The notes beneath the pieces are model-generated. The model saw nothing but the letters and a program-made list of their open reading frames with translations, had not been told where the DNA came from and did no database searches. DNA of 29,218 nucleotides from Utricularia gibba (lineage: Eukaryota > Streptophyta > Magnoliopsida > Lamiales > Lentibulariaceae): the NCBI GenBank assembly GCA_002189035.1, contig NEEC01000283.1, forward strand, positions 1 to 29,218, in the 5' to 3' direction. This document shows, piece after piece, positions 6,001-18,800 of this stretch (position 1 is the stretch's first letter; each line of letters opens with the position of its first letter). The position numbers and the translations under genes were made by a program.

Positions 6001-7153
6001 GGCCCGATCCTGGTGCCCCTCGAGAGCGCCTCCTCAAATAAAAGCTGTGGTTGAGAAAACCATTTGGGGTGCTCATGACATCCTAACTTCAATAAATGCA
6101 TCACGATTTTCGTCGAATAGGACCCGATTGGGCTCAGGAGTCGAACAGAACCTTGGGTCCGGATGAACTTCCCAACGAAAGCACCCACCAAAAACGACAA
6201 GCTTTTCCTTCAGAAAAATGTAGGCAGCTGCCGAAAACCCAACGTTAATAAATGGATCACTTTTTTTGCCGGGCTACAAATGACTATGGGCCCGAGCCCG
6301 ACCGACCTCCGCCCGATCCTGGTGCCCCTCGAGAGCGCCTCCTCAAATATAAAGCTTGTGGATGAGAAAACCATTTGGGGTGCTCATGACATCCTAACTT
6401 CAATAAATGCATCACGATTTTCGTCGAATAGGACCGATTGGGCTCAGGAGTCGAACCGAACCTTGGGTCCGGACGAACTTCCCAACGAAAGCACCCACCA
6501 AAAACGACAAGCTTTTCCTTCAGAAACCATGTAGGCAGCTGCCGAAAACCCAACGTTAATAAATGGATCACTTTTTTGCCGGGCTACAAATGACTATGGG
6601 CCCGAGGACCCGACCTCCGGCCCGATCCTGGTGCCCCTCGAGAGCGCCTCCTCAAATAAAAGCTGTGGTTGAGAAAACCATTTGGGGTGCTCATGACATC
6701 CTAACTTCAATAAATGCATCACGATTTTCGTCGAATAGGACCCGATTGGGCTCAGGAGTCGAACAGAACCTTGGGTCCGGATGAACTTCCCAACGAAAGC
6801 ACCCACCAAAAACGACAAGCTTTTCCTTCAGAAAATGTAGGCAGCTGCCGAAAACCCAACGTAATAAATGGATCACTTTTTTTGCCGGGCTACAAATGAC
6901 TATGGGCCCGAGCCGACCCGACCTCCGGCCCGATCCTGGTGCCCCTCGAGAGCGCCTCCTCAAATAAAAAGCTTGTGGATGAGAAAACCATTTGGGGTGC
7001 TCATGACATCCTAACTTCAATAAATGCATCACGATTTTCGTCGAATAGGACCCGATTGGGCTCAGGAGTCGAACCGAACCTTGGGTCCGGATGAACTTCC
7101 AACGAAAGCACCCACCAAAAACGACAAGCTTTTCCTTCAGAAACCATGTAGGC

Positions 7154-7467
7154 AGCTGCCGAAAACCCAACGTTAATAAATGGATCACTTTTTTTGCCGG
7201 GCTACAAATGACTATGGGCCCGAGCCGACCCGACCTCCGGCCCGATCCTGGTGCCCCTCGAGAGCGCCTCCTCAAATATAAAGCTTGTGGATGAGAAAAC
7301 CATTTGGGGTGCTCATGACATCCTAACTTCAATAAATGCATCACGATTTTCGTCGAATAGGACCCGATTGGGCTCAGGAGTCGAACCGAACCTTGGGTCC
7401 GGATGAACTTCCCAATGAAAGCACCCACCCAAAAACGACAAGCTTTTCCTTCAGAAACCATGTAGGC
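7154..7467 (+). repeat. Representative full-length monomer (314 bp)
   Basis: This copy keeps every landmark of the family and serves as a reference. It runs from AGCTGCCG to the base before the next AGCTGCCG. Its first ~240 bases look identical to the following monomer (7468-7777), which suggests recent local duplication. Restriction palindromes present once per typical monomer are CAGCTG (spanning the anchor), CTCGAG, TCATGA and ATGCAT. AAGCTT occurs twice, at 7281 and 7440, and splits the unit into two near-equal parts. CpG is not depleted: by eye there are about 20 CpGs per unit, near the number expected for this base composition. The monomer start is an arbitrary phase chosen for convenience; the biologically natural start may be the AAGCTT that begins each half. 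Confidence 0.95.
7281..7439 (+). repeat. Half-monomer H1 (159 bp) of the reference copy
   Basis: H1 runs from AAGCTTGTGG to the base before the next AAGCTT. It aligns in direct orientation with H2 (7440-7594). Both begin AAGCTT, both carry AGAAA(A)CCAT about 15 bp in, and both carry AATAAATG-C/G-ATCAC at offset 50 in H1 (7331-7344) and offset 49 in H2 (7489-7502), with 13 of 14 bases shared. Both then have TGGGCYC followed by a GA-C-rich stretch, and both end with an AGAGC/AAAGC-type block at offset ~135 followed by an A-rich run. By eye, identity is about two thirds over the first 75 positions and lower in the centre. H1 alone carries GGAGTCGAACC (7377-7387), which is a B-box-like sequence on the minus strand. 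Confidence 0.85.
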
Positions 7468-7594
7468 AGCTGCCGAAAACCCAACGTTAATAAATGGATC
7501 ACTTTTTTTGCCGGGCTACAAATGACTATGGGCCCGAGCCGACCCGACCTCCGGCCCGATCCTGGTGCCCCTCGAGAGCGCCTCCTCAAATATA
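7440..7594 (+). repeat. Half-monomer H2 (155 bp), spanning the monomer anchor
   Basis: H2 runs from AAGCTTTTCC, through AGCTGCCG, to the base before the next AAGCTTGTGG at 7595. It is the diverged direct partner of H1. The shared core AATAAATGGATCAC sits at 7489-7502, and CGAGAGCGCCTCCTCAAA (from 7573) matches the AAAGCACCCACCCAAAAA block of H1 with interspersed substitutions. H2 contains the C-rich, CpG-rich block and, in most copies, the T-run after ATCAC; H1 has a shorter ATTTTCG there. The A-rich end of H2 (AAATATAAAGC or AAATAAAAGC) is one of the most variable stretches of the family and separates the two monomer classes described below. Confidence 0.85.
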
Positions 7595-10500
7595 AAGCTT
7601 GTGGATGAGAAAACCATTTGGGGTGCTCATGACATCCTAACTTCAATAAATGCATCACGATTTTCGTCGAATAGGACCCGATTGGGCTCAGGAGTCGAAC
7701 CGAACCTTGGGTCCGGACGAACTTCCCAACGAAAGCACCCCAAAAACGACAAGCTTTTCCTTCAGAAACATGTAGGCAGCTGCCGAAAACCCAACGTTAA
7801 TAAATGGATCACTTTTTTTGCCGGGCTACAAATGACTATGGGCCCGAGCCCGACCGACCTCCGGCCCGATCCTGGTGCCCCTCGAGAGCGCCTCCTCAAA
7901 TAAAAGCATGTGGTTGAGAAAACCATTTGGGGTGCTCATGACATCCTAACTTCAATGCATCGATTTTCGTCGAATAGGACCCGATTGGGCTCAGGAGTCG
8001 AACCGAACCTTGGGTCCGGACGAACTTCCCAACGAAAGCACCCACCAAAAACGACAAGCTTTTCCTTCAGAAACCATGTAGGCAGCTGCCGAAAACCCAA
8101 CGTTAATAAATGGATCACTTTTTTTGCCGGGCTACAAATGACTATGGGCCCGAGCCCGACCCGACCTCCGGCCCGATCCTGGTGCCCCTCGAGAGCGCCT
8201 CCTCAAATATAAAGCTTGTGGATGAGAAAACCATTTGGGGTGCTCATGACATCCTAACTTCAATAAATGCATCACGATTTTCGTCGAATAGGACCCGATT
8301 GGGCTCAGGAGTCGAACCGAACCTTGGGTCCGGACGAACTTCCCAATGAAAGCACCAACCAAAAAACGACAAGCTTTTCCTTCAGAAACCATGTAGGCAG
8401 CTGCCGAAAACCCAACGTTAATAAATGGATCACTTTTTTGCCGGGCTACAAATGACTATGGGCCCGAGCCGACCACCTCGGCCCGATCCTGGTGCCCCTC
8501 GAGAGCGCCTCCTCAAATAAAAAGCTTGTGGATGAGAAAACCATTTGGGGTGCTCATGACATCCTAACTTCAATAAATGCATCACGATTTTCGTCGAATA
8601 GGACCCGATTGGGCTCAGGAGTCGAACAAACCTTGGGTCCGGATGAACTTCCCAACGAAAGCACCCACCCAAAAACGACAAGCTTTTCCTTCAGAAACCA
8701 TGTAGGCAGCTGCCGAAAACCCAACGTTAATAAATGGATCACTTTTTTTGCCGGGCTACAAATGACTATGGGCCCGAGCCCGACCGACCTCCGGCCCGAT
8801 CCTGGTGCCCCTCGAGAGCGCCTCCTCAAATAAAAAGCTGTGGATGAGAAAACCATTTGGGGTGCTCATGACATCCTAACTTCAATAAATGCATCACGAT
8901 TTTCGTCGAATAGGACCCGATTGGGCTCAGGAGTCGAACAGAACCTTGGGTCCGGATGAACTTCCCAACGAAAGCACCCAACCAAAAACGACAAGCTTTT
9001 CCTTCAGAAACCATGTAGGCAGCTGCCGAAAACCCAACGTTAATAAATGGATCACTTTTTTTCCGGGCTACAAATGACTATGGGCCCGAGCCGACCCGAC
9101 CTCCGGCCCGATCCTGGTGCCCTCGAGAGCGCCTCCTCAAATATAAAGCTTGTGGATGAGAAAACCATTTGGGGTGCTCATGACATCCTAACTTCAATAA
9201 ATGCATCACGATTTTCGTCGAATAGGACCCGATTGGGCTCAGGAGTCGAACAAACCTTGGGTCCGGATGAACTTCCCAACGAAAGCACCACCCAAAAACG
9301 ACAAGCTTTTCCTTCAGAAACCATGTAGGCAGCTGCCGAAAACCCAACGTTAATAAATGGATCACTTTTTTTCCGGGCTACAAATGACTATGGGCCGAGC
9401 CGACCCGACCTCCGGCCCGATCCTGGTGCCCTCGAGAGCGCCTCCTCAAATAAAAAGCTGTGGTTGAGAAAACCATTTGGGGTGCTCATGACATCCTAAC
9501 TTCAATAAATGCATCACGATTTTCGTCGAATAGGACCCGATTGGGCTCAGGAGTCGAACAGAACCTTGGGTCCGGATGAACTTCCCAATGAAAGCACCCA
9601 CCAAAAACGACAAGCTTTTCCTTCAGAAACAATGTAGGCAGCTGCCGAAAACCCAACGTTAATAAATGGATCACTTTTTTTGCCGGGCTACAAATGACTA
9701 TGGGCCCGAGCCCGACCCGACCTCCGGCCCGATCCTGGTGCCCCTCGAGAGCGCCTCCTCAAATATAAAGCTTGTGGATGAGAAAACCATTTGGGGTGCT
9801 CATGACATCCTAACTTCAATAAATGCATCACGATTTTCGTCGAATAGGACCCGATTGGGCTCAGGAGTCGAACCGAACCTTGGGTCCGGACGAACTTCCC
9901 AATGAAAGCACCCACCAAAAACGACAAGCTTTTCCTTCAGAAACCATGTAGGCAGCTGCCGAAACCCAACGTTAATAAATGGATCACTTTTTTTTCCCGG
10001 GCTACAAATGACTATGGGCCCGAGCCCGACCCGACCTCCGGCCCGATCCTGGTGCCCCTCGAGAGCGCCTCCTCAAATATAAAGCTTGTGGATGAGAAAA
10101 CCATTTGGGGTGCTCATGACATCCTAACTTCAATAAATGCATCACGATTTTCGTCGAATAGGACCCGATTGGGCTCAGGAGTCGAACCGAACCTTGGGTC
10201 CGGATGAACTTCCCAACGAAAGCACCCACCCAAAAACGACAAGCTTTTCCTTCAGAAACAATGTAGGCAGCTGCCGAAAACCCAACGTTAATAAATGGAT
10301 CACTTTTTTTGCCGGGCTACAAATGACTATGGGCCCGAGCCGACCCGACCTCCGGCCCGATCCTGGTGCCCCTCGAGAGCGCCTCCTCAAATATAAAGCT
10401 TGTGGATGAGAAAACCATTTGGGGTGCTCATGACATCCTAACTTCAATAAATGCATCACGATTTTCGTCGAATAGGACCCGATTGGGCTCAGGAGTCGAA

Positions 10501-14288: not shown

Positions 14289-15869
14289 AGCTGCCGAAAA
14301 CCCAACGTTAATAAATGGATCACTTTTTTTGCCGGGCTACAAATGACTATGGGCCCGAGTTCGAAGACCTCCGGCCCGATCCTAGTGCCCCTCGAGAGCG
14401 CCTCCTCAAATAAAAGCATGTGGTTGAGAAAACCATTTGAGACATCCTAACTTCATTTGGGAATAGGACCGATGGGCTCATGACATGAACTTCCCAATGA
14501 AAGCACCCCAACCAAAAAGACAAGCTTCCTTCAAAACCATAGGCAATGGATCACTTTTTTTCCGGGCTACAAATGACTATGGGCCCGAGCCCGACCGACC
14601 TTCCTGTCCCCTCGAGATAGGACCATTTGGGGTGCTCATGACATCCTAACTTCAAAAATGCATCACGATTTTCGTCGAATAGGACCGATCGGGCTCAGGA
14701 GTCGAACAGAACCTTGGGTCCGGATGAACTTCCAACGAAAGCACCCACCCAAAAAAGACAAGCTTGGGTCCGAAAACCCAACGAATAAATGGATCACTTC
14801 CGGGCAACGGGCCCGAGTTCGATATGACCTCCGGCCCGATCCTAGTGCCCCTCGAGAGCGCCTCCTCAAATAAAAGCATGTGGTTGAGAAAACCATTTGG
14901 GGTGCTCATGACATCCTAACTTCAATAAATGCATCACGATTTTCGTCGAATAGGACCCGAACCATGTAGGTAGGCAGCTGCGAAAACCCAACGTTAATAA
15001 ATGGATCACTTTTTTTTCAACTATGTCCGCCCGATAGATCCTCAAATGCTTGTGGATGAGAAAACCACTCATGACATTAACTTGCATCACGATTTTCGGA
15101 ATAGGACCCGATACGAAATGATGAACTATGGGGCAGCCCGAGCACTTTTTTTGCCGGGCTACAAATGACTATGGGCCCGATTCGACTGACCTCCGGCCCA
15201 ATCCTAGTGCCCTCGAGAGCGCCTCCTCAAATAAAAGCTTGTGCCCTCATGACATCCTAACTTCAATAAATGCAGAGCGAATACCCCGATCTCTCAAAAC
15301 TATGAAGTTCCCAACGAAAGCACCCACCAAAAAAGACAAGCTTTTCCTTCAGAAACATGTAGGCAGCTGCCGAAAACCCAACGTTAATAATGGATCACTT
15401 TTTTGCCGGGCTACAAATGACTATGGCCCGAGTTCGACATGACCTCCGGCCCGATCCTAGTGCCCCTCGAGAGCGCCTCCTCAAATAAAAAGCTGTGGTT
15501 GAGAAAACCATTTGGGGTGCTCATGACATCCTAACTTCAATAAATGCATCACGATTTTCGTCGAATAGGACCCGATCGGGCTCAGGAGTCGAACGAACCT
15601 TGGTCGGATGAACTTCCCAATGAAAGCACCCACCAAAAACGACAAGCTTTTCCTTCAGAAACAATGTAGGCAGCTGCCGAAAACCCAACGTTAATAAATG
15701 GATCACTTTTTTGCCGGGCTACAAATGACTATGGGCCCGAGCCCGACCCGACCTCGGCCATCCTGGTGCCCCTCGAGAGCGCCTCCTCAAATATAAAGCT
15801 TGTGGATGAGACGAACCATTTGGGGTGCTCATGACATCGTAACTTCAATCCTTCATCACGATTTTCGTC
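14289..15869 (+). repeat. Scrambled and truncated satellite segment
   Basis: Order and spacing collapse here. The copy at 14289 loses most of its second half after AACCATTTGA (14440) and joins directly to AATGGATCAC at 14545. The next (14545 to ~14770) lacks the stretch between CTCGAGA and ACCATTTGG and joins AGCTTGGGTC to CGAAAACCC. The next (~14771-14975) jumps from TAGGACCCGA (14960) to ACCATGTAGG. The copy from 14976 is the most degraded, with fragments such as CAACTATGTCCGC and AACTATGGGGCAGCCCG that do not fit any normal copy closely. A partial copy from ~15140 to 15364 has a divergent centre (15265-15310). A near-normal copy follows at 15365-15671, then a truncated one. No insertion of unrelated DNA or mobile element is evident. 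Confidence 0.88.
15672..15869 (+). repeat. Truncated monomer with 113-bp class deletion
   Basis: The monomer starts normally at 15672 but after CACGATTTTCGTC (ending 15869) passes straight into AGCTGCCG of the next unit at 15870. Against the reference copy this removes about 113 bp, the part equivalent to 7355-7467. Local substitutions are also present: GAGACGAACC for GAGAAAACC (about 15810), ATCGTAAC for ATCCTAAC (about 15836) and CAATCCTTCATCACG for CAATAAATGCATCACG (about 15846). The copy closes the scrambled zone; regular monomers resume at 15870. Confidence 0.93.
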
Positions 15870-18800
15870 AGCTGCCGAAAACCCAACGTTAATAAATGGA
15901 TCACTTTTTTTCCCGGGCTACAAATGACTATGGCCCGAGCCCGACCCGACCTCCGGCCCGATCCTGGTGCCCCTCGAGAGCCTCCTCAAATATAAAGCTT
16001 GTGGATGAGAAAACCATTTGGGGTGCTCATGACATCCTAACTTCAATAAATGCATCACGATTTTCGTCGAATAGGACCCGATTGGGCTCAGGAGTCGAAC
16101 CGAACTTGGTCCGGATGAACTTCCCAACGAAAGCACCCACCCAAAAACGACAAGCTTTTCCTTCAGAAACAATGTAGGCAGCTGCCGAAAACCCAACGTT
16201 AATAAATGGATCACTTTTTTTGCCGGGCTACAAATGACTATGGGCCCGAGTTCGAAGACCTCCGGCCCGATCCTAGTGCCCCTCGAGAGCGCCTCCTCAA
16301 ATAAAAAGCTTGTGGTTGAAAACCATTTGGGGTGCTCATGACATCCTAACTTAATAAATGCATCACGATTTTCGTCGAATAGGACCCGATTGGGCTCAGG
16401 AGTCGAAAGAACCTTGGGTCCGGATGAACTTCCCAACGAAAGCACCCAACCAAAAACGACAAGCTTTTCCTTCAGAAACCATGTAGGCAGCTGCCGAAAA
16501 CCCAACGTTAATAAATGGATCACTTTTTTTCCGGGCTACAAATGACTATGGCCCGAGCCCGACCCGACCTCCGGCCCGATCCTGGTGCCCCTCGAGAGCG
16601 CCTCCTCAAATATAAAGCTTGTGGATGAGAAAACCATTTGGGGTGCTCATGACATCCTAACTTCAATAAATGCATCACGATTTTCGTCGAATAGGACCCG
16701 ATTGGGCTCAGGAGTCGAACGAACCTTGGGTCCGGATGAACTTCCCAACGAAAGCACCCACCCAAAAACGACAAGCTTTTCCTTCAGAAACATGTAGGCA
16801 GCTGCCGAAAACCCAACGTTAATAAATGGATCACTTTTTTTGCCGGGCTACAAATGACTATGGGCCCGAGCCCGACCGACCTCCGGCCCGATCCTAGTGC
16901 CCCTCGAGAGCGCCTCCTCAAATAAAAAGCATGTGGTTGAGAAAACCATTGGGGTGCTCATGACATCCTAACTTCAATAAATGCATCACGATTTTCGTCG
17001 AATAGGACCCGATTGGGCTCAGGAGTCGAACCGAACCTTGGGTCCGGATGAACTTCCCAACGAAAGCACCCACAAAAAACGACAAGCTTTTCCTTCAGAA
17101 ACAATGTAGGCAGCTGCCGAAAACCCAACGTTAATAAATGGATCACTTTTTTTGCCGGGCTACAAATGACTATGGGCCCGAGTTCGAAGACCTCCGGCCC
17201 GATCCCCCCTCGAGAGCGCCTCCTCAAATAAAAGCTTGTGGATGAGAAACCATTTGGGGTGCTCATGACATCCTAACTTCAATAAATGCATCACGATTTT
17301 CGTCGAATAGGACCCGATTGGGCTCAGGAGTCGAACCGAACCTTGGGTCCGGATGAACTTCCCAACGAAAGCACCCACCAAAAACGACAAGCTTTTCCTT
17401 CAGAAACCATGTAGGCAGCTGCCGAAAACCCAACGTTAATAAATGGATCTTTTTTTGCCGGGCTACAAATGACTATGGGCCCGAGCCCGACCCGACCTCC
17501 GGCCCGATCCTGGTGCCCCTCGAGAGCGCCTCCTCAAATAAAAGCTTGTGGAGAAAACCATTTGGGGTGCTCATGACATCCTAACTTCAATAAATGCATC
17601 ACGATTTTCGTCGAATAGGACCCGATTGGGCTCAGGAGTCGAACGAACCTTGGGTCCGGATGAACTTCCCAACGAAAGCACCCACCCAAAAACGACAAGC
17701 TTTTCCTTCAGAAACATGTAGGCAGCTGCCGAAAACCCAACGTTAATAAATGGATCACTTTTTTTGCCGGGCTACAAATGACTATGGGCCCGAGTTCGAC
17801 CGACCTCCGGCCCGATCCTAGTGCCCCTCGAGAGCGCCTCCTCAAATAAAAGCTTGTGGATGAGAAAACCATTTGGGGTGCTCATGACATCCTAACTTCA
17901 TAAATGCATCACGATTTTCGTCGAATAGGACCGATTGGGCTCAGGAGTCGAACCGAACCTTGGGTCCGGATGAACTTCCCAACGAAAGCACCCACCAAAA
18001 ACGACAAGCTTTTCCTTCAGAAACCATGTAGCAGCTGCCGAAAACCCAACGTTAATAAATGGATCACTTTTTTTGCCGGGCTACAAATGACTATGGGCCC
18101 GAGCCGACCGACCTCCGGCCCGATCCTGGTGCCCCTCGAGAGCGCCTCCTCAAATAAAAGCTTGTGGATGAGAAAACCATTTGGGGTGCTCATGACATCT
18201 AACTTCAAAAATGCATCACGATTTTCGTCGAATAGGACCCGATGGGCTCAGGAGTCGAACAGAACCTTGGGTCCGGATGAACTTCCCAACGAAAGCACCC
18301 ACCAAAAACGACAAGCTTTTCCTTCAGAAACAATGTAGGCAGCTGCCGAAAACCCAACGTTAATAAATGGATCACTTTTTTTGCCGGGCTACAAATGACT
18401 ATGGGCCCGAGCGACCGACCTCCGGCCCGATCCTAGTGCCCCTCGAGAGCGCCTCCTCAAATAAAAAGCATGTGGTTGAGAAAACCATTTGGGTGCTCAT
18501 GACATCCTAACTTCAATAAATGCATCACGATTTTCGTCGAATAGGACCCGATTGGGCTCAGGAGTCGAACCGAACCTTGGGTCCGGATGAACTTCCCAAC
18601 GAAAGCACCCACCAAAAACGACAAGCTTTTCCTTCAGAAACATGTAGGCAGCTGCCGAAAACCCAACGTTAATAAATGGATCACTTTTTTTGCCGGGCTA
18701 CAAATGACTATGGGCCCGAGCCCGATATGACCTCCGGCCCGATCCTAGTGCCCCTCGAGAGCGCCTCCTCAAATAAAAGCTTGTGGATGAAAACCATTTT

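Follow-up and report, generated by a model that had tools for sequence, protein, structure and literature searches.

The 343-bp centromeric satellite of New World monkeys is twice the length of a ~171-bp ancestor, and its two halves are weakly alike (Melters et al. 2013, PMC4053949). In maize, nucleosomes on the centromeric satellite CentC (~156 bp) are spaced at ~190 bp and are out of register with the monomers (PMC3053214). The genome of Utricularia gibba is ~82-100 Mb in size (PMC10663240) with a contig N50 of 3.4 Mb (PMC5793159), and the report of an assembly in which 18 contigs exceed 1 Mb, four of these being putative whole chromosomes, and Unitig_8 measures 6.8 Mb describes satellite repeats as absent from the putative centromeric regions (PMC8333044). 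The subject of the present analysis is a satellite with a monomer of ~311 bp that fills contig NEEC01000283.1 of U. gibba, a stretch of 29,218 bp referred to below as the window. This monomer is very probably a fossil dimer of an ancestral satellite unit of ~155 bp, fixed as an ordered pair of halves, A and B. The fossil-dimer route is already known in satellite evolution; what is new here is one more case.

The window is the whole of one contig (C273) of an assembly (G000) that comprises 100,091,633 bases in 516 contigs and includes RuBisCO small-subunit genes. It consists of a single satellite array from end to end (1-29218, plus strand), which nhmmer parses into alternating halves, 97 of type A and 97 of type B with partial halves counted, covering 98.6% of the window and leaving no two neighbours of the same type; the 97 monomers counted in an earlier reading of the letters alone (the sequence-only reading) are thereby confirmed. 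The long rows obtained with Tandem Repeats Finder (TRF) have periods of 309-312, and TRF reports 89-95% matches and 3-5% indels between copies of the window; dimer-to-dimer identity with gaps ignored (86 dimers) is 0.983-0.988 and flat across lags. An Rfam search of positions 7000-9000 returned nothing up to an E value of 1, and a search of a plasmid collection gave no match. The array is non-coding satellite DNA.

Two related halves in one monomer

The sequence-only reading proposed that the two parts of a monomer delimited by AAGCTT align colinearly. In the monomer at positions 7281-7594 (314 bases), AAGCTT is found at offsets 0 and 159 and again at 7595, which delimits an A half of 159 bp (H1, 7281-7439) and a B half of 155 bp (H2, 7440-7594), both on the plus strand, as are the blocks that they share. 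Behind AAGCTT, the A half contains AGAAAACCAT (7294-7303, offset 13) and the B half AGAAACCAT (7453-7461, offset 172); the core AATAAATGCATCAC of the A half (7331-7344, offset 50) corresponds at 13 of 14 bases to AATAAATGGATCAC of the B half (7489-7502, offset 208, which is 49 within B); TGGGCTC (7369-7375, offset 88) corresponds to TGGGCCC (7529-7535, offset 248); and a closing block in A (7416-7425, offset 135) corresponds to CGAGAGCGCC in B (7573-7582, offset 292, which is 133 within B). All blocks before the closing ones are colinear as proposed. For the closing blocks, the offsets of 135 and 133 were given correctly, but the letters of the first were not, as it starts with T instead of C (TGAAAGCACC in this monomer); the commoner form across the window is CGAAAGCACC, with 66 copies versus 19 of TGAAAGCACC. 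Digestion with HindIII in silico gave the sizes that had been predicted, with 128 of 160 fragments measuring 145-165 bases, 25 measuring 300-316 bases, and seven others.

A consensus was built from the pieces between 135 anchor hits, of which 45 of 134 were kept for having a length of 295-320 bases. Its two halves are identical at 100 of 144 aligned positions (~70%), with a global score of 75, and a second pair of halves, taken from the consensus except that a few letters follow the monomer described above, is identical at 103 of 148. If this similarity were due to chance or shared composition, for which the CCGA- and AAAA-rich stretches in both halves might be cited, shuffled sequences would be expected to score as well. 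In fact, neither mononucleotide nor dinucleotide shuffles (0 of 2000) reach the score in global or local alignment: for dinucleotide shuffles the global score averages 3.0 with a standard deviation (SD) of 9.9 and a maximum of 66.5, which places the true score ~7 SD above the mean, and the local alignment has a z of 11.5. The comparison with shuffled sequences that had been suggested beforehand thus came out in favour of the proposal; chance or composition is ruled out as the cause, and the probability left to it is negligible. A further control, H1 against reverse-complemented H2, scored -22.5. That the two halves of the ~311-bp monomer share one ~155-bp ancestor is supported by their alignment.

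The similarity extends along the whole unit, with an identity of 0.55-0.75 in each of eight 20-column blocks, and matching 14-mers are found at one circular offset only, 156 (mirror 158). The autocorrelation of weak-weak dinucleotides (WW) in the window has a second peak of 0.16 at lag 157, compared to 0.27 at lag 310. Half-to-half similarity is repeated in a diverged subfamily located on other contigs, the A and B consensus halves of which are identical at 93 of 149 positions (z 6.7, 500 shuffles), and it is detectable between subfamilies as well (z 6.2 for diverged A with H2 and 7.0 for diverged B with H1, 500 shuffles each).

Alternatively, selection might have preserved or created boxes for protein binding or nucleosome positioning in an otherwise unrelated unit of ~311 bp, and the shared blocks would be these boxes. 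It is true that the best blocks (AATAAATGSATCAC and the closing block) stand out and that 40 of 155 alignment columns are more than 90% conserved and identical between A and B halves. However, similarity over the full length at a single circular offset, together with its repetition in the diverged subfamily, disfavours such convergence, and two further results also speak against it. The minimal motif of the CENP-B box is NTTCGNNNNANNCGGGN, which is absent from both strands of the window. The consensus has no clear ~10-bp periodicity of AA/TT, the power at 9.7-10.7 bp being reached by 1107 of 2000 shuffles; the remark in the sequence-only reading that a period of 155-160 bp comes close to nucleosome spacing is unsupported as a sign of phasing. 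Altogether, an origin of the blocks by convergence is highly improbable. At lags 10-13, WW autocorrelation in the window is only slightly above zero (0.04-0.10), and at lags 18-23 it is about zero. Of the CENP-B box, only the left part TTTCGTTGG is present 65 times on the minus strand of the window, in A halves.

An ordered pair, its age and its multiples

Neighbouring dimers of the window (0.983-0.988 identical) are far more alike than A and B are, whether the latter are compared as consensus halves (~0.70) or as single copies (0.60). For 55 stretches in a multiple alignment that is not optimised for A against B, single-copy A-B identity is 0.48-0.61 per stretch with a mean of 0.54, and within-type identities all exceed the A-B values. 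The halves collected, 620 of type A and 625 of type B with at least 130 aligned positions each, differ widely in their identity to those of the window itself, with 0.65-0.96 for A and 0.74-0.98 for B. The 55 stretches contributed 131 A halves and 145 B halves to a tree, with no more than four halves per kind per locus and with halves of fewer than 130 aligned positions excluded; loci inside the window (L001, L002), those that are not satellite arrays (L003-L005, L015, L016) and one irregular array (L025) were left out. A and B are separated without exception, with a support of 1.0, and because this separation holds across subfamilies, the A/B split is older than the subfamilies found. Along 22 long stretches, A is followed by B or B by A in 1217 of 1235 cases, and the same is true of 101 of 101 neighbouring pairs in 32 satellite samples.

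Stand-alone arrays of the ~155-bp unit, for which the sequence-only reading recommended a search, were not found in the source genome, either by the spacing of 16-mers or in samples of 78 contigs. Pairs of A-A 16-mers are 141-166 bases apart at six places genome-wide, versus 1570 places at 297-322 bases, and B-B pairs are 141-166 bases apart at three places; within the window, one-unit and two-unit spacings number 0 and 78 for A-A and 0 and 56 for B-B (the genome-wide two-unit count covers A-A, and that for B-B covers the window). The contig samples, 600 bases each, were taken at contig numbers in steps of ~4, 7 and 11 with the known satellite contig C197 excluded. Satellite was present in 32 of the 78, some of it of diverged types, and A-B alternation holds in every one of these; eight samples consist of N only, and one with a partial match (L074, 18%) was scored as being without satellite. 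Irregular same-type spacings are not in excess at multiples of 155.5, as 14 of 88 fall within 15 bases of a multiple and ~17.5 would be expected if they were even. For this reason exchange seems to have left the half-unit register of 155 bp, and the spacings lend no support to present-day exchange in that register.

The proposed sequence of events is that an ancestral unit of ~155 bp came to be fixed in pairs with a set order, A-B. The divergence of A from B, ~30% between consensus halves and more between single copies, suggests that exchange between repeats has given up the 155-bp register, so that the A-B pair would be copied and homogenised as one unit, presumably by unequal crossover and gene conversion. 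In some contigs, diverged dimers were in turn multiplied together as still larger units.

Larger units are most evident in contig C47, a clean array of a four-dimer unit in which identity is 0.964 and 0.962 at lags of 4 and 8 dimers versus 0.836-0.880 at lags 1-3 and 5-7, and the two ends of which have TRF periods of 1246 and 1251. The process that made the dimer is thus repeated at the next level, clearly so in C47. In contig C7, among the matches listed, most A blocks follow one another at ~313 bases and most B blocks at ~600-630 bases, a spacing that looks like a two-dimer unit. In this manner, one 100-Mb genome shows successive levels in the growth of a plant satellite: 155, 311, probably 625, and 1250 bp.

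The sequence-only reading went further than a common ancestor: a ~155-bp satellite was said to have dimerised, whereupon the halves diverged and the dimer became the unit of amplification. The shared ~155-bp ancestor stands, and so does the dimer as the unit now amplified, which is supported; that dimerisation preceded divergence is one of two possible orders. Two 155-bp variants might have diverged first, in separate arrays or zones of an array, and been joined only afterwards, as can occur in the formation of higher-order repeats, into an A-B heterodimer, the unit then amplified. This is a variant of the fossil-dimer explanation that differs only in the order of events, and we would give it a substantial chance, though somewhat less than an even one. 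In its favour, the four-dimer unit of C47 is made of dimers that differ by 12-16%, and dimers composed of variants A and B are described by Melters et al. (PMC4053949). Against it, no pure-A or pure-B stretch is found in the 32 satellite samples, and the same-type pairs (six A-A, three B-B) are isolated; the missing pure arrays weigh weakly, because old arrays could have been lost.

Several points weigh against the fossil-dimer explanation itself. Halves were labelled by their likeness to those of the window, which makes the tree circular in part; alternation, being positional, is independent of the tree. Among the 1235 adjacent pairs, 18 are of the same type, a few of them near one-unit spacing. 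The spacing patterns are exact 16-mers that cover window-type satellite and its near kin, diverged subfamilies having been sampled only in 600-base pieces. No monomeric 155-bp relative was found in the genome with these patterns and samples, which makes the ancestral state a reconstruction and not an observation; a surviving single-unit relative is a supportive feature of the dimer-derived class and not a necessary one. With regard to the larger units, contig C490 is not clean (identity falls from 0.932 at lag 4 to 0.855 at lag 8), contig C37 (TRF period 625) rises no higher than 0.933 at lag 2 and 0.946 at lag 4 versus 0.910-0.932 elsewhere, and a 1876-bp unit reported by TRF in C197 is unsupported, the lags being flat at 0.989-0.992. 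Finally, assembly errors are indistinguishable from real rearrangements.

One stretch of the window on the plus strand (14439-16068) is irregular: it contains partial halves and a 198-bp duplication, TRF rows break there, and halves are truncated in the parse. Perhaps it reflects array damage by rearrangement, or an assembly error or lower assembly accuracy. Dimers on the 3' side of it are less alike (0.975-0.985) than those before it (0.990-0.992).

Amount and place in the genome

Exact matches to the B block AAACCATGTAGGCAGC number 8953 genome-wide, and a control has none; at one copy per dimer of ~312 bp, the satellite amounts to at least ~2.8 Mb. A rough estimate scaled from the contig sample, which treats every satellite contig shorter than 100 kb as entirely satellite, is ~5.5 Mb in small contigs.

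Among the matches listed for three core patterns, no exact copy is in contigs C1, C3 or C4, and C2 has one isolated match in AT-rich DNA with no other satellite nearby. Telomere repeats (TTTAGGG) are present at both ends of C3 (5,347,415 bases) and C4 (3,848,081 bases), which are perhaps whole chromosomes without this satellite; these are the two contigs found here to be telomeric at both sampled ends, versus four putative entire chromosomes in the published description (PMC8333044). When the 36 ends of the 18 contigs longer than 1 Mb were sampled within 1.6 kb, two were satellite (C213 and C402) and one was N. At the end of C213 (3.7 Mb), satellite is present at all four points sampled in the last 105 kb, and judging from these four points the array is longer than 100 kb. 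In C402, satellite is present in the last 600 bases and at 2.62 Mb, and none was found at 2.60 or 2.57 Mb. Contig C460 (880,676 bases) has satellite on the minus strand at 1, 20, 40, 60 and 80 kb and in the opposite orientation, on the plus strand, at 865 and 879 kb near its other end; samples at 90, 100, 300, 600, 820, 850 and 858 kb and 4-kb stretches at 200, 400 and 500 kb contain none. The stretch at 400 kb encodes parts of an integrase zinc-binding domain and of an RNase H-like domain (RVT_3), as well as a gag-like part that falls just short of the Pfam cut-off, and the piece from 500 kb matched no family. With satellite at its ends and domains of the long terminal repeat (LTR) retrotransposon type in one interior stretch, C460 looks pericentromeric.

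The array is probably located in (peri)centromeric heterochromatin. Alternatively, the satellite may belong to non-centromeric heterochromatin and play no part in segregation, which is quite conceivable although we incline slightly away from it. The lack of exact core copies in C1, C3 and C4 among the matches listed and the small number of satellite ends (2 of 36 in contigs longer than 1 Mb, one end being N) are in accord with this alternative, and complete chromosomes seem to manage without the satellite, given that C3 and C4 are telomeric at both ends; the satellite at all four points near the end of C213 and the arrangement of C460, with satellite at both ends and LTR-retrotransposon-type domains in between, are not. 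A third possibility, advanced tentatively and with some doubt, is that U. gibba has mixed centromeres, satellite-free on some chromosomes (C3, C4) and carrying long, ancient A-B arrays that grow into larger units on others. If so, the published view of satellite-free centromeres would apply only to chromosomes assembled whole; the claim may fit those chromosomes, with the satellite presumably lying mostly in unplaced contigs. In any event, U. gibba, reported to be free of satellites in putative centromeric regions, now has a concrete candidate for a centromeric or pericentromeric repeat, and therefore the report (PMC8333044) becomes directly testable.

Some sampled contigs were of other kinds. 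L071 (contig C183) and L080 (contig C253) contain another tandem family, with a unit of ~62 bp and a GC content of 0.33; their consensus units look by eye like reverse complements of each other. Five loci (L036, L048, L090, L091, L102) are small contigs with a GC content of 0.63-0.75 and are perhaps contaminant DNA; tandem repeats of ~51-132 bp are present in four of the five.

Comparison with known satellites

Rice CentO, at 155 bp, is a plant satellite of nearly the same basic length as the halves described here. In the literature, the titles and abstract openings among the matches listed do not name the U. gibba satellite, a scope outside which the long-read genome paper for this species falls. 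Genlisea, of the same plant family, has a 161-bp centromere-associated repeat, Gn7c161, of similar unit length (PMC4542322); kinship was judged from its two published primers, which gave no clear signal, 574 and 67 of 1000 shuffles scoring as high. Maize CentC (~156 bp) is likewise a plant satellite of nearly equal basic length, but it is a single-unit centromeric repeat with a ~10-bp AA/TT periodicity that is absent from the consensus of U. gibba, length and periodicity being the features compared (PMC3053214).

The alternation of A and B variants that cluster separately is like that of the AB-dimer higher-order repeat of sorghum; in sorghum, however, a single-unit length peak is found beside the doubled one, whereas here there is only the dimer, with A and B consensus halves ~30% apart (PMC4053949). 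From the 343-bp satellite of New World monkeys the present case differs in that a 155-bp array was not found in this genome, and it resembles that satellite in that an ancestral unit was doubled, the halves are weakly similar and the dimer became the dominant repeat (PMC4053949).
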